Virus record (IMG/VR): IMGVR_UViG_3300044712_000086
Location: 1-59,796 of that record
DNA length: 59,796 nt
Source: a virus
Reading direction: 5' to 3' (one strand)
Made by a program: the position numbers and the translations under genes. Under the pieces are notes generated by a model. That model searched no databases. It was given only the letters and a program-made list of their open reading frames with translations, and had not been told where the DNA came from. This document shows, piece by piece, positions 6,770-57,469 of the stretch; positions within the stretch are counted from its first letter, which is position 1; each line of letters begins with the position of its first letter.

Positions 6770-6810
6770 TATATAAGCGCCCTTTATGTCCTGGAAATAA
6801 TTTAAATTAT

Positions 6811-7460: not shown

Positions 7461-7469
7461 CAACCTTCT

Positions 7470-7515: not shown

Positions 7516-7543
7516 TATCAACTGCCATTTCAAGGAGAAAATC

Positions 7544-7846: not shown

Positions 7847-7897
7847 TAACAAACAAAGCAGGGAGGATTAACTTTAACCATCCAAGAGGAAAACCAA

Positions 7898-8089: not shown

Positions 8090-8098
8090 AAGACGACT

Positions 8099-8350: not shown

Positions 8351-8361
8351 GGAACAAACAA

Positions 8362-8721: not shown

Positions 8722-8935
8722 ACATAGGGATAGGTTTAACCTAGAAATGTTTGCCGAAGAACTAATCTTCCTGGTAAATAACCTGGGTAGCGACCCACAG
8801 ACACTGGAGGATCAGGAAAAGGTAACAAAGGCACTAAGGGAACTAACCAAACTACAGGCTTTTAGTATCAGTTACGAACAATACATGCTAGAACAGGAGG
8901 CTATTGCAGAAGGATATAGAACTCAAACAGCGTAA
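8708..8935 (+). CDS. Early helical protein, unknown
   Basis: 75 aa, almost entirely helical and acidic (LEDQEKVTKALRELTKLQ). Starts inside the end of the preceding gene (14-nt overlap), suggesting coupling. The following 150 nt (8936-9084) has no convincing gene and contains a hairpin with arms GTGGGTGTAC and GTACCCAC near 9027-9056. Confidence 0.65.
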   Translation: MLLTKHRDRFNLEMFAEELIFLVNNLGSDPQTLEDQEKVTKALRELTKLQAFSISYEQYMLEQEAIAEGYRTQTA

Positions 8936-9084
8936 TCCACAGAAAAGTACCCAGATTATATCACTTTTTGTTATATATCGCGAGATGTATGGGAAATTGT
9001 TTAGTCTGGGTTGGTTTCTTGTGGGTGTACCAAAAGTTAAAGTACCCACACTACAACTCCCAATAAAACTCCCAAGGAAAACTC

Positions 9085-9336
9085 ATGAAATACATCATCG
9101 AAATCACCACCATTGACGAACTTCCCGAGAACCACTTCAGCCGTGACAGCTGGTCCGAAGAAGGTATCTACCAAGTAAAAGGTGACGAATACCTCTACCA
9201 TGTTTCCCGTTATAGCGTTGACTTTATCCCTAACAACAAGCTATTTGTAAAAACTGAATATCACGAACCCAAATCATCCGTACCCGAAGAACTATTCCTC
9301 AAAGCTATTGCTGCCAGCCACGGTAAATCGTTATAA
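9085..9336 (+). CDS. Early protein, unknown
   Basis: 83 aa (start MKYIIEITTIDELPENHFS) with CAAGGAAAACTC before the ATG. Beta-rich, acidic, no recognised motif. Last gene before the first copy of the promoter repeat. Confidence 0.7.
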   Translation: MKYIIEITTIDELPENHFSRDSWSEEGIYQVKGDEYLYHVSRYSVDFIPNNKLFVKTEYHEPKSSVPEELFLKAIAASHGKSL

Positions 9337-9350
9337 ATCAACAACTTACG

Positions 9351-9371
9351 TAGCCGGTACCTAATAGAAAA
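9351..9371 (+). promoter_or_regulatory. Candidate phage RNA polymerase promoter
   Basis: Plus-strand copy of the repeat, reading TAGCCGGTACCTAATAGAAA. It lies in the gap after the 83-aa gene and upstream of the palindrome at 9398-9448 and the gene at 9483. A partial echo CCGGTAACTAAT follows at about 9383. Confidence 0.7.
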
Positions 9372-10078: not shown

Positions 10079-10319
10079 AAACAGTTATACCAAGACTCAT
10101 CCTTACCAAGCTAAATGTGCTAAAGAAGTAGGTTTACCTGAAAAGATATATCTACATGCAGAGATTGATGCTATTCTCAAATGTCATGATCTGTCTAAAG
10201 CACATTCTATTCATATCTTTCGTCAAGGAAAGTCAGGAAAATGGTTACTAGCGAAACCTTGTCCAGCGTGTCAAACAGCAATAAACAAGACACCAATAAA
10301 GAGGGTGTATCATACCTAG
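10017..10319 (+). CDS. Cytidine/nucleotide deaminase-fold protein
   Basis: 100 aa. Carries the zinc signature of the deaminase superfamily: HAEIDAI at about residues 47-53 (H zinc ligand, E catalytic) and KPCPACQ at about 80-86 (two cysteine ligands). Shorter than free cytidine deaminases and distinct from the dCMP deaminase at 20273-20719. It starts within the preceding gene in another frame; the first beta strand (SLTAIIKDKKGNVLAIG) is needed for the fold, so the overlap seems real. Substrate (nucleotide, nucleic acid base or other) cannot be told. Confidence 0.72.
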   Translation: MNHSLTAIIKDKKGNVLAIGKNSYTKTHPYQAKCAKEVGLPEKIYLHAEIDAILKCHDLSKAHSIHIFRQGKSGKWLLAKPCPACQTAINKTPIKRVYHT

Positions 10320-10337
10320 TCGGTACCTAATAGAGAA
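10317..10337 (+). promoter_or_regulatory. Candidate phage RNA polymerase promoter
   Basis: Consensus copy AGTCGGTACCTAATAGAGAA on the plus strand, touching the stop of the deaminase-like gene. It would transcribe rightward through the terS gene (antisense to it) to the ssDNA-binding protein gene at 10840. Confidence 0.72.
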
Positions 10338-10379: not shown

Positions 10380-10775
10380 TTATAGCCCTTCTGACTTAAG
10401 AATCTTTTGTAATTCTTCGTCAGTTAGGTCTTCAACTTTAGTTGTATTTGTTTGTTCTAACCGAGCTAACTTAGGCATCTCAAACTCTGCAATTTCTTTT
10501 GCATATCGAGCTGCATCTTCAAAGTTATCCTGATTTAGAGCATGCATCATTGACAGTTTAAGTACGTCAATTGCTTTAATATCAACTTGTGAAAGGACTT
10601 TCTTAACGGCTTCAGCACTACACTGAAATTCTTCTGTCAGAGCTTTAATAGCTTCTGAATTACGCTTTCGAGATTCAACTGATTTAGCTTGATACTCTTT
10701 AGCCATTTCCGGTGAAGTAATCATCCTCAAATTCTTAATTGAATTAGGATGTACTTTCACATAACTCTTTTTCAT
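10380..10775 (-). CDS. terS: Terminase small subunit (probable)
   Basis: 131 aa, all-helical with an N-terminal basic region, a central ALNQDNFEDAARYAKEIAEFE segment type and the ending KLARLEQTNTTKVEDLTDEE, a pattern I associate with phage small terminase proteins. It would recognise the packaging site and load TerL. It is the only minus-strand gene in the plus-strand region, with its own promoter repeat 18 nt upstream (10793-10813), its own AGGAG ribosome binding site and its own terminator. Family call is from pattern memory, supported by late-type promoter use. Confidence 0.65.
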   Translation of the reverse strand: MKKSYVKVHPNSIKNLRMITSPEMAKEYQAKSVESRKRNSEAIKALTEEFQCSAEAVKKVLSQVDIKAIDVLKLSMMHALNQDNFEDAARYAKEIAEFEMPKLARLEQTNTTKVEDLTDEELQKILKSEGL

Positions 10776-10792: not shown

Positions 10793-10813
10793 ATTTCTAT
10801 TAGGAACCGACTC
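10793..10813 (-). promoter_or_regulatory. Candidate phage RNA polymerase promoter for terS
   Basis: Minus-strand copy reading AGTCGGTTCCTAATAGAAAT. The predicted start lies about 20 nt before the terS ATG, with CTAGGAG in between. It lies back to back with the start of the ssDNA-binding protein gene. Confidence 0.75.
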
Positions 10814-17659: not shown

Positions 17660-17680
17660 CAGCCGGTGCCTAATAGAGAA
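17660..17680 (+). promoter_or_regulatory. Candidate phage RNA polymerase promoter
   Basis: Plus-strand copy AGCCGGTGCCTAATAGAGAA (one base different from the core). Twenty nt later the nuclease gene at 17698 begins, with TTGGAG as ribosome binding site. Confidence 0.72.
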
Positions 17681-19164: not shown

Positions 19165-19677
19165 ATGAGTAATATTTGGTTCTGTTCTGACCTACACTTT
19201 GGTCATAAAAACATTCAGAAGTTTCGTAGACACGTTACCTCTGAAGAAGATAATCGTATGCAGATTAAATTTGATTGGCACAGTCTAGTAACCAAACGAG
19301 ACGTTGTTTATGTACTAGGTGACGCTTGCTTTACTATGGATACTATTGATGAATTTAGTACATTACCCGGGAAAAAATTTCTTATTAGAGGTAATCATGA
19401 TTTACTAAATACATCAGTATATCTAAAATATTTTGAGGAAGTGTACGGCTTATTTAAATATAAGGAATTTTGGTTATCACACGCCCCAATACACCCTGAT
19501 GAATTAAGAAATAAAATTAATTTACATGGGCATGTTCATTACGAAACAGTATCTGATAACAGGTATTTTAATTGTTGTGTAGAAAACACTATTAAACTAA
19601 AAAATCAATCACTGATTTCTCTAGACCAAATCCGAGTAATCATGAAGGAACGCGGGCACAAAGTAGACGGTACCTAA
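19165..19677 (+). CDS. Calcineurin-type metallophosphoesterase
   Basis: 170 aa. All metal motifs present: SDLHFGH (about 8-14), GDACF, RGNHD, SHAPIH and HGHVH. Small phosphoesterases of this form in phages hydrolyse phosphodiesters or nucleotides; the exact substrate is unknown. Begins 1 nt after the ligase stop and ends at a promoter copy. Confidence 0.85.
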   Translation: MSNIWFCSDLHFGHKNIQKFRRHVTSEEDNRMQIKFDWHSLVTKRDVVYVLGDACFTMDTIDEFSTLPGKKFLIRGNHDLLNTSVYLKYFEEVYGLFKYKEFWLSHAPIHPDELRNKINLHGHVHYETVSDNRYFNCCVENTIKLKNQSLISLDQIRVIMKERGHKVDGT

Positions 19678-19684
19678 TACCTAC
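19664..19684 (+). promoter_or_regulatory. Candidate phage RNA polymerase promoter (variant start)
   Basis: Copy TAGACGGTACCTAATACCTA, overlapping the phosphoesterase stop. The -1 to +4 part is ATACCTA instead of ATAGAGA, shared with the nrdA copy at 28555. The gene at 19699 follows with AAGGAAAT as ribosome binding site. Confidence 0.6.
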
Positions 19685-23275: not shown

Positions 23276-24120
23276 TGACTGAAGAAATTTATTTTAAAAA
23301 TGCAATCATTGATGCAGATTCTATTCTGTATCAGATTGCACATGTACAACCATCACCTGCTTTGTGTAAAAAAGCTTTAGATGATGCTTTAAAAGACATC
23401 ATGACAGCTACTGAAGCAGATAATGGTCTTGTGTTTATTAAAGGTACAGATAACTTTCGTTACCATGTAGCAGTAGACTACAAAGGTAACCGTAAAGATA
23501 CCATTGAACCTGAAGTAAAAGACCGTATTGAAATGCTTTATGAGTATGCTAAGGACTTTTGTATTGAATCCGATCATGCTGAAGCAGACGATTACTGTGG
23601 TGTGGCTGCTCAATTAGCTACAAATGAAAATGAATCTTATGTAGTATGTCATATTGATAAGGATCTAGATATGATTCCTGGTTGGCATTACAACTTCCGT
23701 AAGAAAGAGTTTTATCAGGTAACACCTGAAGAGGGTTACTATAACCTTATGAAACAAATTCTTACAGGTGATGCCACAGATAACATTCAAGGTATTAAAG
23801 GTATGGGTCCAAAGACTGCTGAGAAAGTTCTTAAGGATGTACCATTAAGCTTTATGTTGGATACGGTAATCGGTACCTATAAACTAAAGTGCGGATCAAC
23901 CTGGGAACATGACTTCCACAAGTCAGCTAACCTGATTTATATCCGTATGAATAGTGATGATTTTAAACCACTAACATTTGAAGAATTAAAAGAAAAGTTA
24001 TCATGGAAGACTACGGACACTGGCACCCCTTATCAGACAGACCAGACAACGCCTTCGGATTTATCTACTACATCGAAAACCTTGAAACAGGAAGACGATA
24101 CATTGGAAGAAAGCAACTAG
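23275..24120 (+). CDS. 5'-3' exonuclease (FEN/T7 gp6-like)
   Basis: 281 aa. Metal-binding acidic clusters IIDADSILYQ, DHAEADDYCG, CHIDKDLDMIPG and the helix-hairpin-helix-like ILTGDATDNIQGIKGMGPKTAEKVL. Removes primers and degrades host DNA. The last ~40 residues (from WKTTDTGTPY) are polar, low-complexity and encoded by DNA that also encodes the start of the GIY-YIG gene in another frame. Confidence 0.9.
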   Translation: MTEEIYFKNAIIDADSILYQIAHVQPSPALCKKALDDALKDIMTATEADNGLVFIKGTDNFRYHVAVDYKGNRKDTIEPEVKDRIEMLYEYAKDFCIESDHAEADDYCGVAAQLATNENESYVVCHIDKDLDMIPGWHYNFRKKEFYQVTPEEGYYNLMKQILTGDATDNIQGIKGMGPKTAEKVLKDVPLSFMLDTVIGTYKLKCGSTWEHDFHKSANLIYIRMNSDDFKPLTFEELKEKLSWKTTDTGTPYQTDQTTPSDLSTTSKTLKQEDDTLEESN

Positions 24121-24428
24121 TAAGTGTATCCCGAAAACTTAAACCTGGAGCAAGCCGAAGAACTGTCACACGTAAGGAATCTGATTGGAGAGACTATCGA
24201 TCCTCTTGCAGAGAACTCCTGGATGATATTGAACTCTATGGACCTCAAGCATTTACATTTGTTATCTACAAGTGGTGCATTGGTCCCGGAGATCTTACAT
24301 ACAGCGAAGTTGAAGAGCAATGGGAATGTAAAGTCTTATCAAGAGATGAACTCCCTAATGGCGAACGTGTGTGGTACAATGGTAACATTGGAGCAGTAAA
24401 GTTTTTAAAACCTAAAAGTTATGAGTAA
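24003..24428 (+). CDS. GIY-YIG domain nuclease, copy 3
   Basis: 141 aa. FGFIYYIENLETGRRYIGRK is the GIY-YIG core, followed by SDWRDYRSSC and YSEVEEQWECKVL with the catalytic-type glutamate region. Similar to the short Seg-like proteins of T4-type phages. Begins 118 nt before the exonuclease stop in a different frame, so the conserved nuclease core is what constrains that stretch. Confidence 0.75.
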   Translation: MEDYGHWHPLSDRPDNAFGFIYYIENLETGRRYIGRKQLVSVSRKLKPGASRRTVTRKESDWRDYRSSCRELLDDIELYGPQAFTFVIYKWCIGPGDLTYSEVEEQWECKVLSRDELPNGERVWYNGNIGAVKFLKPKSYE

Positions 24429-26188: not shown

Positions 26189-26337
26189 TGAAATCAATAT
26201 ACAAACCGCATATTTACTGGCATGCTCCTTGGTGGAGATGCGTTCGACAAGACCCCTCTAAACCAGGGGTTATTTTTATTGGTGATGGGTGGACCCCAAA
26301 ACAAGCATATAATTATTGCCTCAACATCAAACAGTGA
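26188..26337 (+). CDS. Microgene between primase-helicase and RNA polymerase
   Basis: 49 aa, tryptophan-rich (HIYWHAPWWRCVRQDPSKP, FIGDGWTPKQAYNYC). One-base overlap with the stop of the helicase (TAATG). Unknown. Confidence 0.5.
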   Translation: MKSIYKPHIYWHAPWWRCVRQDPSKPGVIFIGDGWTPKQAYNYCLNIKQ

Positions 26338-26341
26338 CAAC

Positions 26342-28546
26342 ATGAATCCACTACAATATCTTACTGAACGTGTATCGAAGATTGTCTTAAACTCAGATAA
26401 GATTCAGAATGAGGGTGCTCGTCTTCTGGCACATCATGCAACATGGGAATATGACCTTGAAAGATTTATTAATGAAGCTTGGGATTCCCTTCTTAAGTAC
26501 TGTATCCGTAACAAAAATTCTACGCACTCTGCCTCTGTCAAACTCACCTTCGCATCTGACCTTATCGGAAAAAGAATTGCAAGAGCTATCGGTGCTGACG
26601 AAACAGACGTTAAAACTACCTTATCCTTGGGAGATCTTCTTCTTGAAACATTCCTCCAAGACGGACTAATCGATATCTTCCGAGAGTACGAAGGTCGTAA
26701 GGCACCATATATGGTTCGTATTGTTAATATGGACGATGAGATTAAGCCTACACTTATCGGTACTTCTTTTGAACCTTTACTACCTATCGCTGGTTTATAC
26801 AGTCCACTAACTAAAGATCCTTTTATTAAGGGATGGACTAACAGTAAACTATTCCACGAATACCTTAATCAACCATTCATCAAGTCACTTGAAGCTTTAA
26901 GACAACAGCCTTGGGTTCTTAACCAAGCAGTACTGTCTGCTATGGCTGAATGTAAACCACAAGAGATTCTAGAAGTGGTTGATGAACATGGTGTTATCTG
27001 GGATTACAATATCCACCATGAAAATCTAGATCTACCTAAGAAACTATGGCATACAGATGGTACAAAGTTCCTAGGTAAACGTGACCCTAAACTACAGCGT
27101 ATGCTCAGTAAGTTCTTTGAGTATACCCAAGTCATTAAGAAAGCACAACTAATTGGTAACAAAACGTTCTATCAAGAAGTCTCCTGCGACTACCGAGGCC
27201 GTGTATACTACGCCGAGTCCTTTCTTGAATTCCAGGGTTCAGACTTGGCTCGATCCTTGTTTCTTTTTGCTAACAAGAAAAGGGTCGATGAAAGAGGGTA
27301 CTACTGGCTTTCAGTACATGCTGCTTCCTGCTACAATAAATCATTTAATATTGAAGAACTATCTAGCCAAGGATTCTCTACTGACTACGTGGCATACCTC
27401 AAGGAAGAGGGTCTAGATACTATTTCTGTAGATAAAATGACTCTAGACGATCGTGTACTATGGGTTAAAAAGAATCTGGAATTCATTATTAATATTGCCC
27501 GTAGAAAGTGGATTGATCTTAATGCAGAAAAGCCTTATAGTTTCTTAGCAGCTTGTATCGAGATTGCAGGATATCATAAAGCTAAACTACTACGTCAAGA
27601 ATATTTTTCTGGACTACCTATTCCTATCGATGGTAGTAACAACGGATGGCAGCATTTAGCAGCTATGTCTAAGGATAAACAAGCAGGTTCACTAGTATCC
27701 CTGGTACCTACTCCTATCCAAAAAGACTTCTATGTAGCAGTAGCTAAGGACTTAATCAAGCTTATGCCTGAATGGTTTGAGTCTAAGAACATGCCTATGA
27801 AACATATTCGTAAGGGTATTGCCAAGCGTGGTTCTATGACTCGTGCCTACTCAGCTGGTAAACAACGTATCGCTAAGAACATGTACGATGATTGCCATGT
27901 AGAAGGTTTTACTGTCAAGTACAATATTACCGAGGAAGATACAGACATTCTAGCTACTAACCTAATTAAGGCTATTAATACTGTCTGTGCTGGACCTCTT
28001 AAAACAACTAAATTCCTACAGAAAATTGCTGAACATGAGTTAAACTCTGGTCGTAATCATATGACATGGCATACACCTAGTGGTTTCCCTGTAGTTTATA
28101 AGGCTTACTTACAACATGAACGTAAACAAAGAGGTACTATCAAGGGTATCCAAGGTAACAAAGATGGTCGTGTCATGCACGTTATCAAGGTCGATGTACT
28201 TAATAAAGAAACTGGAGAGCGTGTACCTTGTAGGCGTTCTTTTGCGTCTGGTATTAGCCCTAATGTTGTTCATTCCTATGATGCTGCTCACATGGCTAAC
28301 ACTATCGTTGCTTTTAATGGTTCATTTGCTGCAGTTCATGACTCATTTAGTACCCATGCTAGTGAAGTGGACTTTCTCCAAGAAGTAACCAAACAAACTT
28401 TCATTGCACAGTACGATGTAGATAACTTCTTTACTGTACTTAAAGAAAGTTTAATGCTTAATAGTAATACTTTTGAATTCAATGAGCCAGAACTAGGTGA
28501 GTTAGATGTTAAAGAAGTAATTGATTCTAAATACTTTTTCTGCTAA
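26342..28546 (+). CDS. T7-like single-subunit RNA polymerase
   Basis: 734 aa from ATG 26342 (the frame is open from 26222, but the upstream part is covered by the 49-aa gene). DYRGRVYY at 283-290 (DxxGR), motif A DGSNNGWQHLA (D430), motif B KRGSMTRAYSAG (K495, Y503) and motif C AAVHDSFS. All catalytic residues are present. About 150 residues shorter than T7 RNA polymerase, mostly in the N-terminal promoter-handling domain. It should read the nine-copy promoter repeat. Confidence 0.94.
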   Translation: MNPLQYLTERVSKIVLNSDKIQNEGARLLAHHATWEYDLERFINEAWDSLLKYCIRNKNSTHSASVKLTFASDLIGKRIARAIGADETDVKTTLSLGDLLLETFLQDGLIDIFREYEGRKAPYMVRIVNMDDEIKPTLIGTSFEPLLPIAGLYSPLTKDPFIKGWTNSKLFHEYLNQPFIKSLEALRQQPWVLNQAVLSAMAECKPQEILEVVDEHGVIWDYNIHHENLDLPKKLWHTDGTKFLGKRDPKLQRMLSKFFEYTQVIKKAQLIGNKTFYQEVSCDYRGRVYYAESFLEFQGSDLARSLFLFANKKRVDERGYYWLSVHAASCYNKSFNIEELSSQGFSTDYVAYLKEEGLDTISVDKMTLDDRVLWVKKNLEFIINIARRKWIDLNAEKPYSFLAACIEIAGYHKAKLLRQEYFSGLPIPIDGSNNGWQHLAAMSKDKQAGSLVSLVPTPIQKDFYVAVAKDLIKLMPEWFESKNMPMKHIRKGIAKRGSMTRAYSAGKQRIAKNMYDDCHVEGFTVKYNITEEDTDILATNLIKAINTVCAGPLKTTKFLQKIAEHELNSGRNHMTWHTPSGFPVVYKAYLQHERKQRGTIKGIQGNKDGRVMHVIKVDVLNKETGERVPCRRSFASGISPNVVHSYDAAHMANTIVAFNGSFAAVHDSFSTHASEVDFLQEVTKQTFIAQYDVDNFFTVLKESLMLNSNTFEFNEPELGELDVKEVIDSKYFFC

Positions 28547-28554
28547 TCTCGTTA

Positions 28555-28575
28555 TAGATGGTACCTAATACCGAA
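28555..28575 (+). promoter_or_regulatory. Candidate phage RNA polymerase promoter for nrdA-nrdB
   Basis: Copy TAGATGGTACCTAATACCGA, 9 nt after the RNA polymerase stop. Shares the variant ATACC start with the 19664 copy. The likely nrdA ATG (28597) follows 22 nt later. Confidence 0.65.
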
Positions 28576-28596
28576 CAACAACTAACAGGAAGATAC

Positions 28597-30609
28597 ATGG
28601 AAAATAATTATAAAGGTTTAATTAATATTAACTACGATAAAGATAACCTGCTTACTGATTATGCTAAAGATATGATCATGGACTTCTATGCTATCAAAGG
28701 TGAAACATCACCCCAAGAAGTCTATGCCCGAGCAGCTTGTGCTTGGAGTACATTTAAAGGTAAACAAGATCTTGCATTAGCTCAACGGTTATATAACTAT
28801 GTAAGCAACAAATGGTTTATGTTTGCCTCACCTGTACTATCTAATGCACCAGCTGTAGACGCTAAGGCTAAAGGCTTACCTATTTCCTGTTTCCTTACAT
28901 ATGTACCTGATACAGTAGAGGGTCTCATCGATCACTCATCCGAACTACGTTGGCTATCTGTAATGGGTGGTGGTGTAGGTGGACATTGGTCAGACGTACG
29001 TTCCGTATCTGACGTAGCGCCTGGTCCTATTCCTTTCCTACATACAGTAGATGCAGATATGACTGCATATCGTCAAGGTAAAACTCGTAAAGGTTCTTAT
29101 GCTGCTTATCTCTCTATTGATCACCCTGATATTATGGAGTTTATTGGTCTCAGGATCCCAACAGGAGACGTCAATCGTAAATGCTTCAATCTCCATAACG
29201 CTGTTAATATTACTAATACTTTCATGGATGCTGTCCTGAAAGGTAAACAATACGAACTTATTGACCCTAAGCGTGGTAACACAGGTGAATTCCTAGATGC
29301 ACGTACTGTATGGACTAAGTTAATGGAAACTCGTTTCCGTACTGGTGAACCATACTTAAACTTTATTGATACAGCTAATGAAGCATTACCACAAAGTCTA
29401 AAAGACAAGGGTCTAAAGATTCATGGTAGTAATTTATGTAATGAAATTCACTTACCAACTTCAGAAGATCGTACCGCAGTATGCTGCTTAAGTTCAGTTA
29501 ACCTAGAATACTTTTCTGAATGGAAAGAAACTACTATGGTTCAAGACCTAGTACGTATGCTTGATAATGTACTAGAATACTTTATTGATAATGCTCCAGC
29601 ATCACTTGTCCGAGCAGTTAAATCAGCCAAAGCAGAACGATCAATTGGTCTTGGTGCTATGGGTTTCCATGAGTGTTTACAACGATATAATATTTCATTT
29701 GAATCAACTGACGCAGTATTTATGAATGAAACTATGTTTAGTTTTATTAAGACTGCTGCTAAACTAGAATCAAAACAATTAGCTACTGAGCGTGGTGAAC
29801 CTGAAGATATGGCTGGTACTGGCCTACGTCATGCACATTTAATGGCTATTGCGCCTAACGCTTCTTCAGGTATTTTACTAAGTACTTCTCCTAGTATTGA
29901 GCCTAGTAAGGCAAATGCTTACACTCACCGTACTCGGGCAGGTTCTTTCTTAGTTAAAAATAAATACCTTGATAAGCTACTAAATGAATTAGGTAAAAAT
30001 AATGAAGAGACATGGTCATCTATTATTACTAATAAAGGTAGTGTACAACATCTAAACTTCTTATCTGATGAACAAAAGAAAGTATACAAAACTTCTTTTG
30101 AATTAGATCAAGCTTGGGTGGTTAAACATGCTGCAGATCGTCAGCCATTTATTTGCCAGGGACAATCGGTTAACTTATTCTTCCCTGCTGGATCTGATCG
30201 ATCTTATGTTAACAAAGTACATCTACAGGCGTGGTTATCAGGATTAAAAGGATTATACTATCTCCGTACCGAAGCTAAACAACGTGCCGAGAATGTATCT
30301 GAAAAGGTTGAAGAGAATAAATTGAAAGAAGTAAAAGAAACTATTATCTATGGAAAACCAAACTGCCCACAATGCAACATGGCCAAAGCCCTTCTTGAAT
30401 CAAGAGGAATTGAATATGTATATGTTGACATTACTACTACAGGTAAGTCAGCAGCAGAAATTACTGGAAGATCAGATGTCAGAACTCTACCTCAAGTATA
30501 TCTCAATGGCGAATACGTTGGAGGCTTTGATGGACTCTATAGTAAATTACAACATCGAGACACCGATGCAGTAACCGAAGATAATGAATGTAAAGCTTGT
30601 GAAGGTTAA
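28597..30609 (+). CDS. nrdA: Class I ribonucleotide reductase alpha subunit fused to glutaredoxin
   Basis: 670 aa from ATG 28597 (AGGAAG before it; an in-frame ATG at 28558 lies inside the promoter repeat). Redox/active cysteines in PISCFLTY, SNLCNEIHL and AVCCLSSVNL; no N-terminal ATP cone, so no classical dATP shut-off. Residues ~590-660 are a glutaredoxin domain, YGKPNCPQCNMAKALL with CPQC, and TLPQVYLNGEYVGG. The fusion brings its own electron donor. Followed 2 nt later by nrdB. Confidence 0.92.
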   Translation: MENNYKGLININYDKDNLLTDYAKDMIMDFYAIKGETSPQEVYARAACAWSTFKGKQDLALAQRLYNYVSNKWFMFASPVLSNAPAVDAKAKGLPISCFLTYVPDTVEGLIDHSSELRWLSVMGGGVGGHWSDVRSVSDVAPGPIPFLHTVDADMTAYRQGKTRKGSYAAYLSIDHPDIMEFIGLRIPTGDVNRKCFNLHNAVNITNTFMDAVLKGKQYELIDPKRGNTGEFLDARTVWTKLMETRFRTGEPYLNFIDTANEALPQSLKDKGLKIHGSNLCNEIHLPTSEDRTAVCCLSSVNLEYFSEWKETTMVQDLVRMLDNVLEYFIDNAPASLVRAVKSAKAERSIGLGAMGFHECLQRYNISFESTDAVFMNETMFSFIKTAAKLESKQLATERGEPEDMAGTGLRHAHLMAIAPNASSGILLSTSPSIEPSKANAYTHRTRAGSFLVKNKYLDKLLNELGKNNEETWSSIITNKGSVQHLNFLSDEQKKVYKTSFELDQAWVVKHAADRQPFICQGQSVNLFFPAGSDRSYVNKVHLQAWLSGLKGLYYLRTEAKQRAENVSEKVEENKLKEVKETIIYGKPNCPQCNMAKALLESRGIEYVYVDITTTGKSAAEITGRSDVRTLPQVYLNGEYVGGFDGLYSKLQHRDTDAVTEDNECKACEG

Positions 30610-31726: not shown

Positions 31727-31747
31727 TAGTCGGTTCCTAATAGTAAA
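31727..31747 (+). promoter_or_regulatory. Candidate phage RNA polymerase promoter for tRNAs
   Basis: Copy AGTCGGTTCCTAATAGTAAA. By analogy with T7 the start would be G31743, 8 nt before the tRNA-Asn gene, which is a strong hint that the repeat is a promoter rather than a protein-coding or structural repeat. Confidence 0.78.
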
Positions 31748-34075: not shown

Positions 34076-37000
34076 TTAAGTCATGAAGTATACTTTACCT
34101 TGTTTAGCTTGTTGTTTTACTTTATCCATAGCTTTAGCCTTTTTAGCTAAACCTCTGTTAATCCAGCTATTAAGGCCGCCTTCGTTTTTATTAAAAGCTG
34201 CTCTAGTTCCACTAACATCTAGATATTCAATAACAGCATTTAAAAGTATTTTAAATTGAGAAGGTGTTAATACAACTGCACCTGATCGATCTTCTGGTTT
34301 AACATAACCATATTTAGGGTTTTCAAGAACCTCTTTAAATTTCTTTTGTGGTTCTGAAGGATTCTTAGTATCCTTAATATAGCCATATTCTCTATCAAGC
34401 GTAATAAATGCACCACGGTACTTACTGTTTTTATCAATAACTACTTCACCCTGATTTTCAATTTCCTTAATACCTTCTCTAAGTTGATTTTCAAAATCTT
34501 CTTTAAAAGGTTTCTGAATATCCCAATCAAAAATCTTGGGTGCAATAATGTTATTAGCAGTATATAATACGTAGGGGTAACTTGTTGCATCTGTAATAAA
34601 GTTATCGAATACGGGTAACATATACATCATTTTAGCAGGATCTTTACCACCATTAATGTAATTCATTGTATCAATAACTAACGCAGACTCACGATACTGA
34701 CCGAGTAACGGACCAATTTGGTTAATGGCAGCAGTACCTTCACCGGGTTCCCATACAGTACCGTCTTCAAATACTTTAGGTTTTGCTGGTGCTAAAGCAT
34801 TAAACATAGCACGAGTCAATTTAATTTTACGTTCGTTAGCACCAGTGCCTACAGTAACAGTAGTTCCTGTTTCTACAGGAGTCATGTTACCTAGACTCAT
34901 CTTTTCACCATATATACCTGTTGGATGTGGTACGCGACCAAGCATTTGTAATACTTTAACCATCTTCTTTGGTAATACAAATTGCCACTCAGATACAACA
35001 TCTTTAAGAGTAAACTTAAAAATTTCATTAATATCTTTAATAGCCGCTTCAGTATTACCATTATAGTAGTTTACAAGTTCATCACTAAACTCAGGATGCT
35101 CTTTTAAAAACGCTCTTGCTTCTTCTAAGTGATAAGCTAATGGCTTACCATAGTCTGTAGTTAATAGTACTTTCTTAGCTAGTGATTTATTAAATGATCT
35201 ACTTCCATATTTGTCAAGTAGCTCTTTAAATTTCATAGCTTTTTCACGTTGGTCTAAACCAAATGCTTTGTCAATACTTTGGTGTTTAGCTACATCTATA
35301 AAGTATGTACGGGGGTTACCTTCTGGTTGTGTATCATCAAATACACCATCACGATCAGCAGATTCCCATAATAAACCTACACGCTCAATAACGTTCATTT
35401 CACCAATGTCCATTGCTAAGAACGCACGACCCGCAGAGTTCATATCAATAGCTACAGTAGCTTTAGGTAAAAATGGTTTATTATTTTTCTTGGCATCTAA
35501 ATAATTAGAAGCATCTACATAAGCCTGTAGTACATAACCCCATGTTTCTCTATCAGAATTATCTAATAAAGTTTGCATAGCTACTTTTTGTTCATCAGTA
35601 AGCTTAGATGGATCAACAGTCTGGGGATCTACCATAGCATTGTATACATCTCTTTTTGTTGATGGTACAATTGATTTAAGTACTGAACCTACTTGAGCAG
35701 CAGCAATTAGGAAGTTAGGTGTAATAGCTTCTAAAATATTAGGGGCAGTCATATTTTCAGTAGTCATACCTACAGTACGACCTACATCAAGAACTCTACC
35801 AAGAGTTAATAAGAAGCCTAATTCACGTTCTTGTGCTGATAAGCTGTTAATATCGAAATTACCTGATCTAACCTTATTACCAATACGTTCCCAATACTTT
35901 TCAGCGGTAAATCTATTTACACCAGTTTCATGATAGTTACTATCCATCATAAATGGATTACCAATACCTGTAGTAATAGCTCTGGTAAATTTATTACGCT
36001 GCTCATTCATGTCTAATGAATCATTGTATAAACGGTGAACAGAGTAATCTTCCCAATGAGGTGTATATCGAGGTACGCCTTGTAATAATGCGTTAGATAG
36101 CATAGTAAGTTCTTTACCAATGCCATTAAGTTTATCTTTAACTACAGGACTACCTTCCTCAATATCCCGTTTAGTAATCTTAAACAGATCAAGAGTATTA
36201 AATGGGGCAGGGTTAGCAGGATCATTTTGAGCTTCAATAAGAGCGTTACTATATAACATAGCACCGATATAAGCCTTACCTGGGCCAACTAAGCGACCAA
36301 TACTACCGGCAATACGTTTAGCTTCAGTAACATTATCTAATTTTTCAAAGTTAACTTTCTGCTTATCACCCCTACGGATGTTACGCATAGCGCCAGCATA
36401 GTTACCTTCTTCAGTTACAGGTACAGTTTGAGACATACCTGCACCAGCCTCACCTAATGTACGTCTTAGGTTACGACCACTAGCATAAAACTCAGTACCA
36501 AAGATAGGGTTTAAACGAACAATACGTGTACCGTCTGGAGCGTTATCTAAAGTAAAGATATCAGAATTAACTAAGGCATTTAAAGCAGTAGCACCAGCAG
36601 ACTGTGCATCTACGTTTTGCCCTTGTAGTGTACGAGGGTCAAGTGGGTTATTTTCAGCATCTACTTGAGAACCTTTAGCATAGTTTTTAATTAAACGACC
36701 TAATGTTTGTTCAACAACCTCTACAGGTACACCACCGCTAACAGCATTCTTGGGAATTGCTACATCACCTTCTTGGGAAAGAATAGCATCTAAATAATTA
36801 AATGTATCTTTTTCATCGGTTTGAATTTCACCATTACCTGTTTTAGCAGCACCAGCAAGCATAGGTGCGATCATATTAGCAGCTAAAGTAATATTAGAAG
36901 CTACTTGCTTAGTTGATAGACCTAAACCTTGTTTAAGGTAGGTCATACCAGATAGTTCTACAGGAGTAGCGCTACCTTCTTCGGTAATATTAACCATTTC

Positions 37001-37483
37001 ACGGCTAAGTGATTCACCAATATCTCTGGCAGAACGCTGAATAGTACCTGCCTGAGTAGGTAATACTGCTTCAGGGAATGCGTCTCTTAACTCTTGTTGT
37101 GATTCCCAATCAATATTAACTGATTGCGCTAGTCTAGCTTGTCTAGCCTTTTCTTCTTCTAATTGTTGTAGTCTAACGTCATAAGGTGTAACTTCACCTT
37201 GAGCAGTTAGTGTTTCTCTTTCTACATCTACAACATCGTTAAAAGGTTGTGGCTCAACTTCTTGGGGTACAAAACTAGGAGCAGCAAAGGATTGATATTC
37301 CTCTGGTGCTGGCATCTCAGGTACAGGTGCTCCACCTTGAAATGGAGTACCAGTAACCTGCATGTTTTCAGGTAATGGTGCTTGAGCATTAGCTCTTGCA
37401 GCAGCTTGGTTAGCAAGTTGTTGTTCTAGGAACTTGTTACCTAGTGGTGGTACCTGGCTAGGTACATTGACATTAATAGCCAT
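34076..37483 (-). CDS. Internal virion protein with RNA-polymerase-like motifs (candidate virion RNAP)
   Basis: 1135 aa, last gene of the late operon, after other ejection proteins. A Q/P/A-rich N-terminus (1-120) precedes a large globular part. VAIDMNSAGRAFLAMDIG (D680) resembles motif A; KSLAKKVLLTTDYG (K766, K770, Y778, G779) fits motif B with the R/K-x3-K-x7-YG spacing of phage N4 virion polymerase; MLPVFDNFITDA (D960) resembles motif C. A DxxGR motif is not clear (the nearest is ETGVNRF, 519-525). The size matches the N4 mini-vRNAP. Alternatively a large structural ejection protein with chance motifs. Confidence 0.5.
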   Translation of the reverse strand: MAINVNVPSQVPPLGNKFLEQQLANQAAARANAQAPLPENMQVTGTPFQGGAPVPEMPAPEEYQSFAAPSFVPQEVEPQPFNDVVDVERETLTAQGEVTPYDVRLQQLEEEKARQARLAQSVNIDWESQQELRDAFPEAVLPTQAGTIQRSARDIGESLSREMVNITEEGSATPVELSGMTYLKQGLGLSTKQVASNITLAANMIAPMLAGAAKTGNGEIQTDEKDTFNYLDAILSQEGDVAIPKNAVSGGVPVEVVEQTLGRLIKNYAKGSQVDAENNPLDPRTLQGQNVDAQSAGATALNALVNSDIFTLDNAPDGTRIVRLNPIFGTEFYASGRNLRRTLGEAGAGMSQTVPVTEEGNYAGAMRNIRRGDKQKVNFEKLDNVTEAKRIAGSIGRLVGPGKAYIGAMLYSNALIEAQNDPANPAPFNTLDLFKITKRDIEEGSPVVKDKLNGIGKELTMLSNALLQGVPRYTPHWEDYSVHRLYNDSLDMNEQRNKFTRAITTGIGNPFMMDSNYHETGVNRFTAEKYWERIGNKVRSGNFDINSLSAQERELGFLLTLGRVLDVGRTVGMTTENMTAPNILEAITPNFLIAAAQVGSVLKSIVPSTKRDVYNAMVDPQTVDPSKLTDEQKVAMQTLLDNSDRETWGYVLQAYVDASNYLDAKKNNKPFLPKATVAIDMNSAGRAFLAMDIGEMNVIERVGLLWESADRDGVFDDTQPEGNPRTYFIDVAKHQSIDKAFGLDQREKAMKFKELLDKYGSRSFNKSLAKKVLLTTDYGKPLAYHLEEARAFLKEHPEFSDELVNYYNGNTEAAIKDINEIFKFTLKDVVSEWQFVLPKKMVKVLQMLGRVPHPTGIYGEKMSLGNMTPVETGTTVTVGTGANERKIKLTRAMFNALAPAKPKVFEDGTVWEPGEGTAAINQIGPLLGQYRESALVIDTMNYINGGKDPAKMMYMLPVFDNFITDATSYPYVLYTANNIIAPKIFDWDIQKPFKEDFENQLREGIKEIENQGEVVIDKNSKYRGAFITLDREYGYIKDTKNPSEPQKKFKEVLENPKYGYVKPEDRSGAVVLTPSQFKILLNAVIEYLDVSGTRAAFNKNEGGLNSWINRGLAKKAKAMDKVKQQAKQGKVYFMT

Positions 37484-45897: not shown

Positions 45898-46251
45898 TTA
45901 TTTACAAACTGGATTTGCTAAATCTAAAGCATTAACCCCATTAGGAATCATACTAGGGTCAATAATTTCATTAGTATTTTTATCTCTTAAGGCATGAATA
46001 CAATATGCAACTGTTTCATCAGTTAATGCTTCTAATTCATGTACTTTATCTTTGTGAATATAAATCATATGTGGAGCGGTAAATTCAGTACTTACTCCTT
46101 CAACCGTTACTTTAAGTTTACCTTTAGCAAGTAAGGTTAAATGATCAAACTGATGCGTGTGGCCGATTTCAATGTCGCCAGCTTTTTCAAAACGCATCAT
46201 GCGTGAAAAGAGGTTGGCAACGCAGCCGATGTGAACAGTAGGTGAACTCAC
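45898..46251 (-). CDS. Cupin protein (resident copy)
   Basis: 117 aa. GHTHQFDHLTLLAKGKLKV and HKDKVHELEAL provide the two cupin motifs and three histidines that can bind a metal. Homologous to the cupin at 46602-46880 but AT-rich like the rest of the genome. Begins within the stop of the preceding domain copy (ATGA). Function unknown; found next to tail genes in other phages. Confidence 0.7.
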   Translation of the reverse strand: MSSPTVHIGCVANLFSRMMRFEKAGDIEIGHTHQFDHLTLLAKGKLKVTVEGVSTEFTAPHMIYIHKDKVHELEALTDETVAYCIHALRDKNTNEIIDPSMIPNGVNALDLANPVCK

Positions 46252-46532
46252 AGAATGCTCCGTGGGATTTCGTTAGATGGCGGAGTTGCGGTTATCGGTG
46301 GCGGTGGTACGTATTCGCCAATAGGGCCGTATTTACCTGCTACAAGGTCTGCGAAAATTTTACGACCATGAACCTCAACATCGTTTATGCTGGCAGTGAA
46401 GGGTAAAACTTCATCGCCAAACTGCGAAGTTGTGATTTCGCAGTCAATTATGGTTTGTTCAGCGTTGGCCCAGCACGGGGCCAAGCGACTCGACGTTATC
46501 AACCGTTTTCGCCGCCTTCTTGACGAGGGCAA
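46248..46532 (-). CDS. Tail-associated small protein, truncated copy
   Basis: Homologous to 46877-47146 from WANAEQTIIDCEITTSQF onward (motif GDEVLPFTASINDVEVHGRK). Upstream of the W codon (about 46470) the sequence is that of a different gene read in another frame, so the native N-terminus is lost. The frame is open to a TTG at 46532 but has no ATG; it may use a non-ATG start, be translated by re-initiation at the overlapping TGA (46459), or be a remnant. Confidence 0.55.
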   Translation of the reverse strand: MPSSRRRRKRLITSSRLAPCWANAEQTIIDCEITTSQFGDEVLPFTASINDVEVHGRKIFADLVAGKYGPIGEYVPPPPITATPPSNEIPRSIL

Positions 46533-46601: not shown

Positions 46602-46880
46602 TCAATACTTACCTTCGGCAAAGACGTTCACAAAAACGGTCCCGTCTTCCAGCGCCTCGATTTCATGCCATTCGTTTGCCACAAGGCTAACCGGCTGCGT
46701 GTCCTTGGTCATCACCAGCTCACGGCCTTCCTTACGCACGACAGCGCGGCCCGCATGACACAGCGTCAGGTGAGAGAAAACGTGCTCGTGGCGCGGCAGA
46801 CCCTCGCCATTGTTGGCGTGATAAACGTGTAGCGTGGTGCCGTCTTGTGTGACAACAAAGCGTGGACGGATCTCGTTCAC
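46602..46880 (-). CDS. Cupin protein (GC-rich copy)
   Basis: 92 aa. PRHEHVFSHLTLCHAGRAVV and ANEWHEIEAL carry the metal histidines. ATGA overlap with the preceding domain gene, as in the resident pair. Clearly GC-richer than the resident cupin, pointing to recent acquisition from another phage. Confidence 0.72.
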   Translation of the reverse strand: MNEIRPRFVVTQDGTTLHVYHANNGEGLPRHEHVFSHLTLCHAGRAVVRKEGRELVMTKDTQPVSLVANEWHEIEALEDGTVFVNVFAEGKY

Positions 46881-47146
46881 AGCGTCTGCGCCCCCTCAAC
46901 TGTCGGCTGCGAAGAGCTGGCTGGGAGAACGGGCTCCGGCGGGGGCACATACTCAGCAATAGGCCCGTACTTACCGGCAACGATGTCGGCAAAGATTCCA
47001 CGACCGTGCGCCTCAACATCGTTGGCGCTTGCCGTAAACGGAAGAATTTCGTCCCCAAACTGCGAGGTGGTGATTTCACAGTCAATCATGGTGTGGCCTG
47101 CGTCCGCCCACCGGGGGTTTGTCAAAGATGTCAGTGTTGCTTGCAT
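46877..47146 (-). CDS. Tail-associated small protein (GC-rich copy)
   Basis: 89 aa from ATG 47146 (GAGGTGAAC before it). MIDCEITTSQFGDEILPFTA and EAHGRGIFADIVAGKYGPI define the domain, which I have seen following tail-fibre genes in proteobacterial phages; ends in PP/S-rich residues. Intact version of the truncated copy at 46248-46532. Confidence 0.68.
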   Translation of the reverse strand: MQATLTSLTNPRWADAGHTMIDCEITTSQFGDEILPFTASANDVEAHGRGIFADIVAGKYGPIAEYVPPPEPVLPASSSQPTVEGAQTL

Positions 47147-47156
47147 GTTGTTCACC

Positions 47157-47528
47157 TCAAGAAATACGAAGCCAAAGCGTTGCGGGGAAAAAGTTTGCAA
47201 AACAGTTTGAATAAGGCAGGCTGTATCCCATACACCGCCAAGTTCCCGATACTGTTGTGGAGGCGCTACCGAATACTTGGCTGGCGCTGGTGCTGGGCCA
47301 CGGGCTGGCCTTGGCGAAGCCCATATAAGCCAGAGCAGACCCCGGTCTTGTGCCGCCAGCCTGAGTCGTCGTTTGTGAGCTTTCACCCAAAAGTGCATAA
47401 GTCCCTACCGCGCCAACAGACGCGCCAGCCGTGGCGTTAAGAACGGCGGTAGTGTTAACAACAGCCGCAGTGCTTTGCGTGGTGCCATCATTAAAAAGAA
47501 TATCGGTTCCCCGAACGGTTACTGGCAT
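47157..47528 (-). CDS. Putative tail tip/fibre protein
   Basis: 123 aa. FNDGTTQSTAA near the start, a T/A-rich beta stretch and a compact ending (CMGYSLPYSNCFANFFPATL, WLRIS) resemble small receptor-binding or fibre-tip modules. GGAGG ribosome binding site. GC-rich, so likely part of the acquired cassette with the following two genes. Confidence 0.62.
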   Translation of the reverse strand: MPVTVRGTDILFNDGTTQSTAAVVNTTAVLNATAGASVGAVGTYALLGESSQTTTQAGGTRPGSALAYMGFAKASPWPSTSASQVFGSASTTVSGTWRCMGYSLPYSNCFANFFPATLWLRIS

Positions 47529-52322: not shown

Positions 52323-52595
52323 TTACCATTTAACTTTATTTGCCCAGTAAGCTGCGCTTAATGGACCCTTTGCAATATCTTTGGCATGTCTAGCCTTAAA
52401 CGATTCTCTGCGTTTACGGTATGCTTCCGACTCACCTTCTTTTTTAGGGCTACCTTGAGTGCCCTGTTCTCCAAATCGGATTAACCTAATTTTACTGCCT
52501 TCTTTTACAAGTACAGCATGTGACTTTGTAGGGTGATCAGGAGTTCTTTTAGGCTTATTATAGCCTTCAAATTTCTCGCCAGCGTATTCAATCAT
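52323..52595 (-). CDS. Conserved phage protein (AHAVLV.EG type)
   Basis: 90 aa. KSHAVLVKEGSKIRLIRFGE and FKARHAKDIAKG ending SAAYWANKVKW match a widely conserved basic phage protein of aquatic phages (DUF6321-type), possibly a capsid-associated or DNA-binding protein. ATGA overlap with Rz. A promoter repeat lies 7 nt upstream. Confidence 0.78.
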   Translation of the reverse strand: MIEYAGEKFEGYNKPKRTPDHPTKSHAVLVKEGSKIRLIRFGEQGTQGSPKKEGESEAYRKRRESFKARHAKDIAKGPLSAAYWANKVKW

Positions 52596-53017
52596 AAAGA
52601 ACTTTCTAATAGGTACCGCCTACAAGTAATAAGCGATTGTTTTAAGACTTCGGCTTTGGCAGCTTCCCCGATAAGAAATTCTGCATCCTCTCTAAATAAT
52701 TGTTCTCCAGTGCTTCCTGTTCCTGTGCAGACAGCGGTGCAAGAGTTGGTTTCTTTGGGTACATCACTTCTTTCCGGACGGTTCCGCAAGCTGACAACAA
52801 TAGCATTGTGCTTAGAATTAAGAGTTTTAATTTCATTTTCTTTGTCTAACTGAATAAGAGTAACTTTCTTAGTTAACTCTTGATTTTTAATTTCTTGCTC
52901 TACTAATTGCTTTTCATAAATCTTGGCTTGTCTATTACTAGCTGTTTTATAGCCATAATCATAACATACATAACCAATAAACAAAGCAATTAAAGCTACA
53001 ACAATTGATTTAACCAT
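52592..53017 (-). CDS. i-spanin (Rz-like)
   Basis: 141 aa: N-terminal transmembrane helix (IVVALIALFIGYVCYDYGY), long coiled-coil periplasmic region, and C-terminal region with FREDAEFLIGEAAKAEVLKQ typical of Rz proteins. Spans the periplasm with the nested Rz1 and fuses the membranes at lysis. The promoter-like repeat is encoded in its last codons. Confidence 0.83.
   Translation of the reverse strand: MVKSIVVALIALFIGYVCYDYGYKTASNRQAKIYEKQLVEQEIKNQELTKKVTLIQLDKENEIKTLNSKHNAIVVSLRNRPERSDVPKETNSCTAVCTGTGSTGEQLFREDAEFLIGEAAKAEVLKQSLITCRRYLLESSL
52602..52622 (-). promoter_or_regulatory. Candidate phage RNA polymerase promoter inside the Rz end
   Basis: Minus-strand copy TAGGCGGTACCTATTAGAAA, one base different at the core (CCTATTAG for CCTAATAG). 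It lies within the last codons of Rz and only ~10 nt before the next ATG, leaving a very short leader, so it is the weakest of the nine. Confidence 0.5.
52642..52836 (-). CDS. o-spanin (Rz1-like) nested in Rz
   Basis: 64 aa in another frame entirely inside Rz. Signal peptide with lipobox LLLSACG (Cys 17), proline-containing mature part (YPKKPTLAPLSAQEQ). A lipoprotein of this size inside an i-spanin gene is the classic Rz/Rz1 arrangement. Marks a Gram-negative host. Confidence 0.85.
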   Translation of the reverse strand: MKLKLLILSTMLLLSACGTVRKEVMYPKKPTLAPLSAQEQEALENNYLERMQNFLSGKLPKPKS

Positions 53018-54235: not shown

Positions 54236-57200
54236 TTATTTTCCTTCTAGAATTTTAATTCTATTTTCTAATTCAATTACTTTCTTAGCAAGTTTAATTA
54301 CAGATACTAAAGCTGCATTTCCATAAGCTACAGAAAGTTTTCCGTTATCACCTAGTAAAACAGAATGTGGTAAAATTGGTTGTAAAGATTGAGCAGAAAC
54401 ACCGTCTTGTGTTAATGCAATATCAACACGATCGTATGTACCACTCTTAACAAGTGCTAATAACTCAATAAAGTTATCAGGTAACTCGCGCCAATTTGTT
54501 TTTAATGACTCATCAGAGTTTGCAATAACGTTACCACCAACTGTTAAGTTAGTTCCGTTAAATGTTAAGTTAGCAGATCCAGCGGCTACACCGTTATTGT
54601 TATAAATAACTTGTGTGTTTGAACCTGCAACAGGGCCAGGAGGTCCAGCGGGACCAGTAGGACCAGTAGGTCCAGCGGGACCAGTTGGTCCAGTTAAACC
54701 TGTTGGACCTTGTAGACCTTGAGGGCCAGTTGGTCCGGTAGGTCCAGGAGGACCAGACGGTCCAGTAGCACCCGTAGGACCAGTTGCACCAGTATCACCT
54801 CTTGGAATAACAAAATCAAATACAGCTGCAGAAGATGTACCACTATTGGTTACTGAAGCACTTGTGCCCGCTGTACCAGTAGTTGTAGTACCTACTGTAA
54901 TAGTAGCTGCAGTTCCTGTAGGACCGGTAGGTCCGGTGGGACCTGGAGAACCGGGAGTACCATCAGCACCTGCTGGCCCAACGGGACCAGTAGGGCCGGT
55001 AGGACCAGGAGCACCATTAGAACCAGGAGCACCAGCAGGACCGGTAGGTCCAGGAGGGCCGACTAAAGCTGCATTACTTACAGTAGCTTTCTTTAATGTA
55101 TTGTCTGTGGCATCTAATACTAACAAGTAATCATTAGCACCGTCTACTGAGGTAATAGCTGTTTTACCACTAATTGCATTTGGAGTTAAAGTTGCAGTAC
55201 CGGTAACATCGTTTGTGCCGTCAAAACCAGCGCTAGTATAACCAATATCACCACTTGCAGAAATAGTTCTTGCGTTAGTTAATTGTGTAGCAGTGTTTGC
55301 TGAGCTAGCTGTAGTAGCTGTACTTGCATTACCTTGTAAGGCACCATAAAAGTTTTCAGCTTGAAAGTCTGCTAATGCAAATGATGGATCTGAAGTGTCA
55401 ATAAAGACACCTGGTTCAGGTAAGTAGTTCTTAAAGATTTTCCATCTACCATCAGACGCATCTCTAAAGATACCTGTGTGTCGATATACACCATCATTGT
55501 AGTTACCTGTAACACCAATATCAGGATTAGCTACAGTAGAACCTTCGTTAAGATAAATCATATTATCTTCAACAGCTAGGTTCTGAGTATTAATAGTTAC
55601 AGTTGTACCTTCTACAGTTAAGTTACCCCTAACTATGGCATCACCTTTTACCTCTAAATTATTATCGGTAATGGTATTACCATATAAAGTAGTGTTATTT
55701 AAGAAAGTATTCTTAGGTACGTTTTTCCAAACACCTACAATAGAGTCATATACTAATACATCATTATTAGCTACCGCTGTAATTAATACATTGTGTAATT
55801 CATCGAGTTCATAACCATTTTGAATCTTAACCTCAATAGAACCTTGAGTAGCATGTGATCTGGATACTGTACCTACATACACAATATGGTTAGGTGCTTG
55901 TGGTTTGGTGGTAGTATAACCGCCTGGAATAGTAGGTGACAACCAAAGAGCAGCACCTTCAGTATAAGCAGAAGTGTTTAACCCAGATAGTTCACCAATA
56001 ATAGTAGCTTTACCATTATTGTTGTTTGCAATACCCTGGGATAAAATAGCGTATGTACCCGAAGAAGTAGATTCTGCATTAGCTTGAGCTTTTTGGACAA
56101 GAGGTTTATTACCTCCTGCACCTGATAAATATACAACAGTACCTTTTGTTAAAGTTGCACCAGTTTGGTTTCTAACAATAGTGTTAACTGTTAATGAACT
56201 TAATACTGCTAGATCTCTTGAACTACCGCTTGCTGTAATAGCTACGCTTCCATCATTAGAAGTTATTGTTTGTACGGCAGTTTGTATAATAGTCGCAGCT
56301 TCACTAGCAGAAGCAGCAGCTGCGGTAGCGCTATTAGCTGCACTAGTGGCTGAGTTAGCCGCAGCGGTAGCAGAACTTGCAGATGAGGTTGCACTTGAAG
56401 CAGAACTAGTTGCTGATGCTGCTGAATTGGAAGCGCTGGTAGAAGCACTATTAGCACTATTTAAAGCAGAAGTTGCGGATAATGCTGCATTGGTAGCTGA
56501 AGCACTAGCAGCAGATGCTGAATTAGAAGCATTAGTAGCTGAAGTACTGGCAGATGTAGCAGAACTAGCTGCAGAAGTAGCACTTGTACTAGCATTACTT
56601 GCAGAAGTTGAAGCGCTATTTGCAGAAGTATTAGCTGCGGATGCAGACGCGGCAGCACTAGTAGCTGATGCACTAGCTTCTGTAGCTTTAGTAGTAGCTG
56701 TATTAGCTGAAGTAGCAGCATTAGTAGCAGAAGTACTTGCTTCTGTGGCTTTAGTTGTTGCAGTAGCAGCACTGTTAGTGGCGCTAGTAGCTGAATTAGC
56801 TGCACTAGTAGCACTAGTTGCTGCAGCATTTCTGTAGGCTAAAGCGTCAGCTGCCTCACTTGCTGCGTCAGAAGCAAAGACACTAGCTTCGTTAGCTTCA
56901 TTTGTTGCAGTTGTTGCACTGTTTGCCGCTGAGGTAGCACTTGTAGCGGCCTCATTAGCTTTAGTTGTTGCAATACCTGCTTGAGTAGTAGCTGTAGTAG
57001 CACTATTTGAAGCAGAAGTAGCACTAGCGGAGGCTTCACTGGCCTTAGTAGTTGCAGTTGTTGCTGAACCAGAAGCTGAAGAGGCGCTAACAGAAGCTTC
57101 ACTGGCTTTGGTTGTTGCGGTACTTGCAGAAGTACTTGCGTTAGTGGCTGAGGTAGCAGCATTAGTAGCGGAAGTACTTGCACTGGTAGCGGAAGTTGCG

Positions 57201-57469
57201 GCATTAGCAGCTGAGGTACTTGCGCTAGAAGCAGCGGCAGTAGCAGTTGCTACTTGGGTATTAATTTGATTAACTGTGTTCTCGGCAAATTGAGCAGAGT
57301 CAGCTGCGTCAGCAGCACTAGCAGCAGCTTGTTGAGCACTAATATTAGCTTGGGCAGCGGCTTCAGCTGCTTCATTACTGTATTGTAATGAGTCTACTGA
57401 ATCTAGGTCGTCATATTCCCCGCCAGCCGAGATACTACCAGTCATGCCTGGTTTTTGTTCATATCCCAT
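54236..57469 (-). CDS. Collagen-like tail fibre with Peptidase S74 chaperone
   Basis: 1077 aa. ~30-400: long A/S/T-rich heptad-like repeats. ~400-800: beta domain with [16 protein letters not shown] and GNLTVEG. ~800-945: two G-x-y collagen tracts ([16 protein letters not shown]..., [17 protein letters not shown]) split by a [13 protein letters not shown] insertion. Last ~110: S74 domain, SDESLKTNW (S-x4-K dyad) and a final coiled coil. Trimeric; the chaperone cuts itself off after folding. Confidence 0.88.

Follow-up and report, generated by a model that had tools for sequence, protein, structure and literature searches.

What would a phage that already encodes a complete T7-like RNA polymerase do with a second protein resembling one? 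The question is raised by the virus record IMGVR_UViG_3300044712_000086, analysed here over its full 59,796 bases (the window), in which the last late gene, P0001, adjoins the genes of two large ejection-type proteins, P0002 and P0003. A preliminary description of this DNA had read P0001 as a possible relative of the virion RNA polymerase (vRNAP) of phage N4. Among phage polymerases made of one chain, N4 gp50 is the standard case of an enzyme that travels in the particle and is injected, which poses the problem of how 3,500 residues get through a narrow tail. We argue below that P0001 is almost certainly a single-subunit RNA polymerase (RNAP), and that it is probably related to the N4 virion polymerase, packaged, ejected and active early in infection.

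Conserved motifs in the P0001 family

Searches with the single sequence of P0001 (Pfam, PHROGs, phmmer against PDB, tblastn against phages) gave nothing useful, and a collection of bacterial and archaeal genomes yielded no homologue. One relative in IMG/VR is 87% identical. Iterated searches yielded a family alignment of 16 sequences (A6) that extends down to 27% identity; as a profile it had no match among PDB sequences with hmmsearch.

The motifs on which the preliminary description relied read VAID680MNSAGRAF, K766-SLA-K770-KVLLTTD-Y778-G779 and LPVFD960NFITD in P0001. They are where it had placed them, and the homologues, in which their loss had been named as a possible refutation, keep them: D680, K770, Y778, G779, K780 and D960 are invariant among the 16 members, and K766 is nearly so, with G in one member (L028). 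The three most conserved windows of nine residues in P0001 are AIDMNSAGR (0.95), VLLTTDYGK (0.94) and PVFDNFITD (0.93), against a mean of 0.45. Because the catalytic residues are kept in relatives down to 27% identity, the motif resemblance is not due to chance.

On one point we depart from the earlier reading, according to which a clear DxxGR motif is missing. Judging by profile alignments, R484 (DYSVHR484LY) is probably the arginine of the DxxGR/TxxGR type. Separate alignments place it on N4 vRNAP R424 and on T7 RNAP R425, and in the P0001 family it is invariant together with Q495, R496, K498 and R501. A GR pair at this position is found in L028 alone (STGR). Another candidate for TxxGR, GVNR524, was rejected since R524 is not conserved in the family.

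The nearest named phage to the window is Roseobacter phage CRP-7 (MK613349), which infects host FZCC0042 and shares the genome layout of the window. CRP-7 gp33 belongs to the same size class as P0001 and has the same position, behind the large gp35 and gp34; since gp34 is clearly homologous to P0002 (hhalign E 7e-30), the two positions correspond. The identity between gp33 and P0001 is about 20%. R484 is invariant in the gp33 group as well, and equivalents of D680, K766, YGK and D960 are kept there, with R in place of K770; motif C of gp33 reads IHDALIT. The CRP-7 description recognizes one RNA polymerase, ORF30, and a second is not mentioned in the passages found (PMC6918029).

Predicted structure

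An AlphaFold2 model of P0001 was built on A6 (predicted local distance difference test, pLDDT, 73.2; predicted template modelling score, pTM, 0.68). In this model each motif has fitting secondary structure around it: a strand (676-679) for motif A, a helix (762-773) for motif B and, for motif C, a beta hairpin (955-958/961-965) with D960 at its turn. By their order, hairpins 310-324 and 866-895 may correspond to two elements of T7 RNAP, the intercalating hairpin and the specificity loop. A search of the model with Foldseek found the single-subunit polymerase fold that had been anticipated: every leading PDB match is a T7, mitochondrial or N4 polymerase, with E values down to 1.6e-13. VIA-align gave Z 24.9 for T7 RNAP (555 residues, 5.3 Å), 23.4 for yeast mitochondrial RNAP and 20.6 for the N4 mini-vRNAP (702 residues, 6.5 Å). 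Matches to the polymerase fold cover residues ~99-1135, nearly the whole chain, and in a viral structure library the significant matches were N4-like vRNAPs and phage RNAPs. The model of a CRP-7-type homologue is poor (pLDDT 51, pTM 0.40); its PDB matches, with the N4 mini-vRNAP first (E 0.005) and T7 and mitochondrial enzymes also present, are weak evidence because its alignment included the P0001 family.

Relationship to virion polymerases

A6 was compared by hhalign with 11 polymerase domains of Schitoviridae vRNAPs and with 14 T7-like polymerases. Against the vRNAPs the probability was 94.8, with E 4.9e-8 (one comparison) and a score of 82 over 402 columns, the match running from P0001 residue 208 to D680 on residues 155 to D559 of the N4 mini-vRNAP. 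It pairs D-Y-S-V-H-R484 with N4 T-R-V-G-R424 and N-E-Q-R-N-K-F-T-R with N-P-Q-S-A-K-L-V-R. The real score compares with at most 27.5 for 30 column shuffles and 20.3 for the reversed alignment, and E stayed at or below 4.6e-6 whichever subgroup was dropped. Against the T7-like polymerases E was 0.054, with the same element aligned, on T7 DWRGR425VY. The set-up works, since it recovered the known homologues N4 and T7 at E 4e-12.

On these profiles the P0001 family is nearer to the Schitoviridae vRNAPs than to the T7-like polymerases. The proposed link to the N4 virion polymerase is thus upheld by the profile comparison, and by gene position and the absence of cysteine, to which we come below. 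Only the profile-profile approach with a diverse vRNAP set was successful. Three family sequences against single N4 gave nothing significant with hhalign, P0001 was unmatched by the vRNAP library models (PHROG 2206, Pfam vRNAP domains) at E up to 1, and L015 and the CRP-7 relatives were unmatched by them at E up to 10. P0001 had no match to RNA_pol PF00940 or PHROG 414, and no Pfam match to the Plug module or the N4 helical domain. The spacing between R484 and D680 is 196 residues, as compared with 135 in N4, which leaves room for an insert. The idea that P0002 is a detached C-terminal part of gp50 was dropped, as hhalign detected no homology.

Position in the late module and absence of cysteine

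The window consists of two facing modules. The late genes, on the minus strand, start with terL (6769), cross the record ends and finish with P0001; the plus strand carries the early and middle genes, between ~7.5 and 34.0 kb. Gene order confirms that P0001 is the last late gene, in what may be called an ejection cassette with P0002 and P0003, and the separate T7-like polymerase of the preliminary description is indeed there (Table 1). LUZ24-like and KIT05-like phages close their late module with a homologue of P0002, and no polymerase comes after it. The related podoviruses PaP3, KIT05 and Vibrio 1.262.O have a P0002-type gene and facing modules without a polymerase behind that gene, so P0001 looks like an addition to the cassette. 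By library search the portal is of SU10/CRP-7 type, and the genome is not that of a schitovirus.

P0001 and 15 of the 16 family members have no cysteine; the remaining member has one. Cysteine is likewise absent from the CRP-7 group, P0002, P0003 and the P0002 homologues tested, and from N4 gp50, gp51, gp52 and ten other vRNAPs, as against 5-14 cysteines in each of the 14 T7-like polymerases. At the rate of the early and middle proteins P0001 would be expected to have ~19 cysteines, and at that of the other late proteins ~6. In StenR_269 the lack of cysteine had already served as a pointer to a vRNAP (PMC10747016). Given its place in the cassette and this composition, P0001 is likely to be packaged and ejected. 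Two further indirect points favour this: P0001 looks like an addition to the cassette, and with a complete T7-like polymerase present it is not needed as an ordinary phage polymerase.

A possible transcription programme

A 17-nucleotide motif, AGYCGGTNCCTAATAGA, occurs at eight sites in the window at no more than 2 mismatches, compared with 1 match in 20 random genomes. The sites lie mostly in intergenic gaps and are directed at genes. Its position and form suggest that the motif most likely serves the T7-like polymerase as promoter. No copy of a motif of this type turned up when bases 1-58106 of CRP-7 were scanned, so it is particular to the window's group. The ORF (open reading frame) at 10380-10775, a minus-strand gene within the plus-strand early module, resembles by eye a small terminase subunit.

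The genes at 7505-9336 lie upstream of the first plus-strand copy of the motif (9352) and hence need another polymerase. Near the divergent region that precedes them, sigma-70-like sites were no commoner than in shuffles. Two further observations belong to this part of the genome. At 6949-6964 the sequence TTTGGGGTACCCCTAC, with the palindrome GGGGTACCCC, is also kept by three relatives in their divergent regions, and at 7470-7512 there are two adjacent hairpins (GATAGAGTATTA..TAGTACTCTATC; CGGGGACGTTGTCCCG then TTTT) directly 5' of the first early ATG (7544).

The most probable way for the two polymerases to share the work is the following. P0001 would be a catalytically competent enzyme, expressed late as part of the late operon. 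Together with P0003 and P0002, encoded beside it, it would be put into the particle and would leave through the tail when the genome is ejected. After entry it would transcribe the first genes, downstream of the divergent region, until the T7-like polymerase is made; this second enzyme would then take over the middle and late genes, starting at AGYCGGTNCCTAATAGA promoters, the one of the late operon included. We infer the early-gene role of P0001, its single-stranded DNA hairpin promoters and the identity of the polymerase that uses AGYCGGTNCCTAATAGA, and each is put conditionally here. If correct, the switch from ejected to T7-like polymerase would be a simple one. Such a programme had been thought unusual; it is not unheard of, as N4 uses its vRNAP and then RNAPII. 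It is a serious possibility, which we put forward tentatively, that in these marine and metagenomic phages a stand-alone ejected polymerase of about one third the size of gp50, from a second lineage of virion-ejected enzymes outside Schitoviridae, and a T7-like polymerase do all transcription without the host RNA polymerase.

Alternative explanations

Several points weigh against a packaged, early-acting relative of the N4 enzyme. We infer packaging, ejection and polymerase activity from indirect support. The tail fibre (54236-57469) is free of cysteine too, so the trait marks virion proteins more broadly and is support rather than proof. The structural model is moderately confident, with pLDDT below 50 in the motif B loop (774-781), and the modelled fold cannot separate T7-like from N4-like polymerases; it is the sequence profile that favours N4. 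The C-terminal half of P0001 alone gave no significant profile match to N4 vRNAPs, and the divergent region, to which a simple hairpin scan was also applied, showed neither a convincing early promoter nor a conserved single-stranded DNA hairpin.

How far do these points favour something else? P0001 might be an active RNA polymerase that remains, unpackaged, in the producing cell and acts late, for example on a late subset of genes or in packaging, as its place in the late operon would allow. However, its nearly cysteine-free family resembles the N4 ejection proteins and none of the 14 cytoplasmic T7-like polymerases tested, its gene has a fixed place after those of the ejection proteins in both of two groups that are very diverged, and its profile is nearer to the vRNAPs than to the T7-like enzymes; we find a late, unpackaged polymerase unlikely. 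A somewhat smaller chance goes to an ejection protein that has kept the polymerase fold and lost polymerization, serving as a DNA-binding or pulling part of the ejection channel. The canonical GR pair that is not conserved, the R at position 770 in the CRP-7 group and the poorly modelled motif B loop would all suit such a protein. Against it, no group departs from the two catalytic aspartates or the YG pair, and conservation along P0001 is highest at motifs A, B and C, as expected under selection for catalysis. An ordinary ejection protein with a chance likeness to polymerase motifs would explain why no sequence match is found in Pfam, PHROGs or PDB; in view of the controlled profile match, fold Z scores above 20 across the chain and conservation that peaks at the motifs, this explanation is nearly refuted. 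We therefore keep to the reading of P0001 as an ejected polymerase.

Features of the window

Table 1. Positions of the genes, sequence elements and promoter-like sites discussed in the text
Feature	Position	Strand	Description
P0001	34076-37483	-	ATG to stop, 1135 amino acids; candidate virion (ejected) single-subunit RNA polymerase
R484 element	35981-36049	-	Residues 479-501, DYSVHR484LYNDSLDMNEQRNKFTR; probable TxxGR/DxxGR equivalent and N-P-Q-x2-K-x2-R element; hhalign to N4 and T7-like families
Motif A	35426-35452	-	Residues 678-686, AIDMNSAGR (D680)
Motif B	35144-35188	-	Residues 766-780, KSLAKKVLLTTDYGK
Motif C	34589-34615	-	Residues 957-965, PVFDNFITD (D960)
P0002	37484-41278	-	1264 amino acids; ejection-type virion protein; PHROG virion structural protein family; 0 cysteine
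P0003	41292-44174	-	960 amino acids; ejection-type, SLT lytic transglycosylase domain; 0 cysteine
T7-like RNA polymerase	26222-28546	+	774 amino acids, complete; 9 cysteines; matches RNA_pol PF00940 and PHROG 414
Divergent region	6770-7504		735 nucleotides, non-coding, between late operon (-) and first early genes (+); proposed early promoter site
Promoter-like site AGTCGGAACATAATAGA	6814-6830	-	Upstream of terL/late operon; kept in three relatives as AGYCGGTACATAATAGAGAAA
Promoter-like site AGCCGGTACCTAATAGA	9352-9368	+	First plus-strand copy, early/middle module
Promoter-like site	10318-10334	+	Exact consensus
Promoter-like site	10796-10812	-	Exact consensus; upstream of ORF 10380-10775 (-)
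Promoter-like site	17661-17677	+	Exact consensus
Promoter-like site	19665-19681	+	2 mismatches
Promoter-like site	31728-31744	+	1 mismatch
Promoter-like site	52605-52621	-	1 mismatch; directly upstream of ORF 52323-52595 (-)

A few other genes deserve mention. The fibre protein on the minus strand at 54236-57469 is long, rich in Ala, Ser and Thr, and collagen-like (GPTGPTG). Two alike short tail-region proteins (IDCEITTSQFGDE.LPFTAS.NDVE.HGR) are encoded on the minus strand at 46248-46532 and 46877-47398, where the DNA is GC-rich and several frames overlap, and the copies look like a recent duplication or cassette exchange. The gene at 28558-30609 encodes the large subunit of a ribonucleotide reductase that, read by eye, seems to be fused to a glutaredoxin-like C-terminus (IIYGKPNCPQCNMAK...). 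An ORF at 24003-24428 (plus strand) overlaps the end of the exonuclease gene; its sequence resembles a GIY-YIG-type endonuclease, and L001 has the same ORF.

Comparison with known systems

A vRNAP has also been proposed in StenR_269, a podophage that is not N4-like. The candidate was put forward as a large, helical and cysteine-free protein (PMC10747016). It rests on those traits and on low-confidence models, and we liken it to P0001 by description.

With the T7-like polymerases of Autographiviridae, P0001 has in common the fold, the order of the motifs and the spacing of motif B. It differs from them in the weak profile match, at the DxxGR element, in having no cysteine where they have 5-14, and in being encoded in an ejection cassette.

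The likeness to N4 gp50 (PDB 2po4, 3c2p, 9pnq) goes further. Both have the single-subunit fold and detectable profile homology, and R424, D559, motif B and D951 of the N4 enzyme align with their P0001 counterparts. Gp50, gp51 and gp52 form the ejection operon of N4 (PMC12633501). Like P0001, gp50 is the product of the last late gene behind ejection proteins and is cysteine-free; later in the programme it gives way to a separate T7-like polymerase, as P0001 would. P0001, however, has 1135 residues against ~3500 and is without the N- and C-terminal domains of gp50. Its family has A[IL]DMNSAG in motif A where gp50 has ExDGxxxG, the D and the final G being at the same spacing and the E and the DG absent. 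Unlike gp50 it is unmatched by the vRNAP models of Pfam and PHROGs and is found in a non-schitovirus genome. Strictly speaking, P0001 hence falls outside the gp50 family. Proteins of gp50 type are 2,842-3,820 amino acids long, and an IMG/VR survey of N4-like viruses dropped proteins below 2,500 amino acids and required ExDGxxxG (PMC10654107); being shorter and lacking that motif, the P0001 group would be filtered out of it.

If P0001 is what we propose, a stand-alone ejected polymerase of ~1,135 amino acids, free of giant extra domains, would show what packaging and ejection really require. The same arrangement is carried by a cultured phage, CRP-7, whose gp33 is annotated as a hypothetical protein, and this makes the idea testable.

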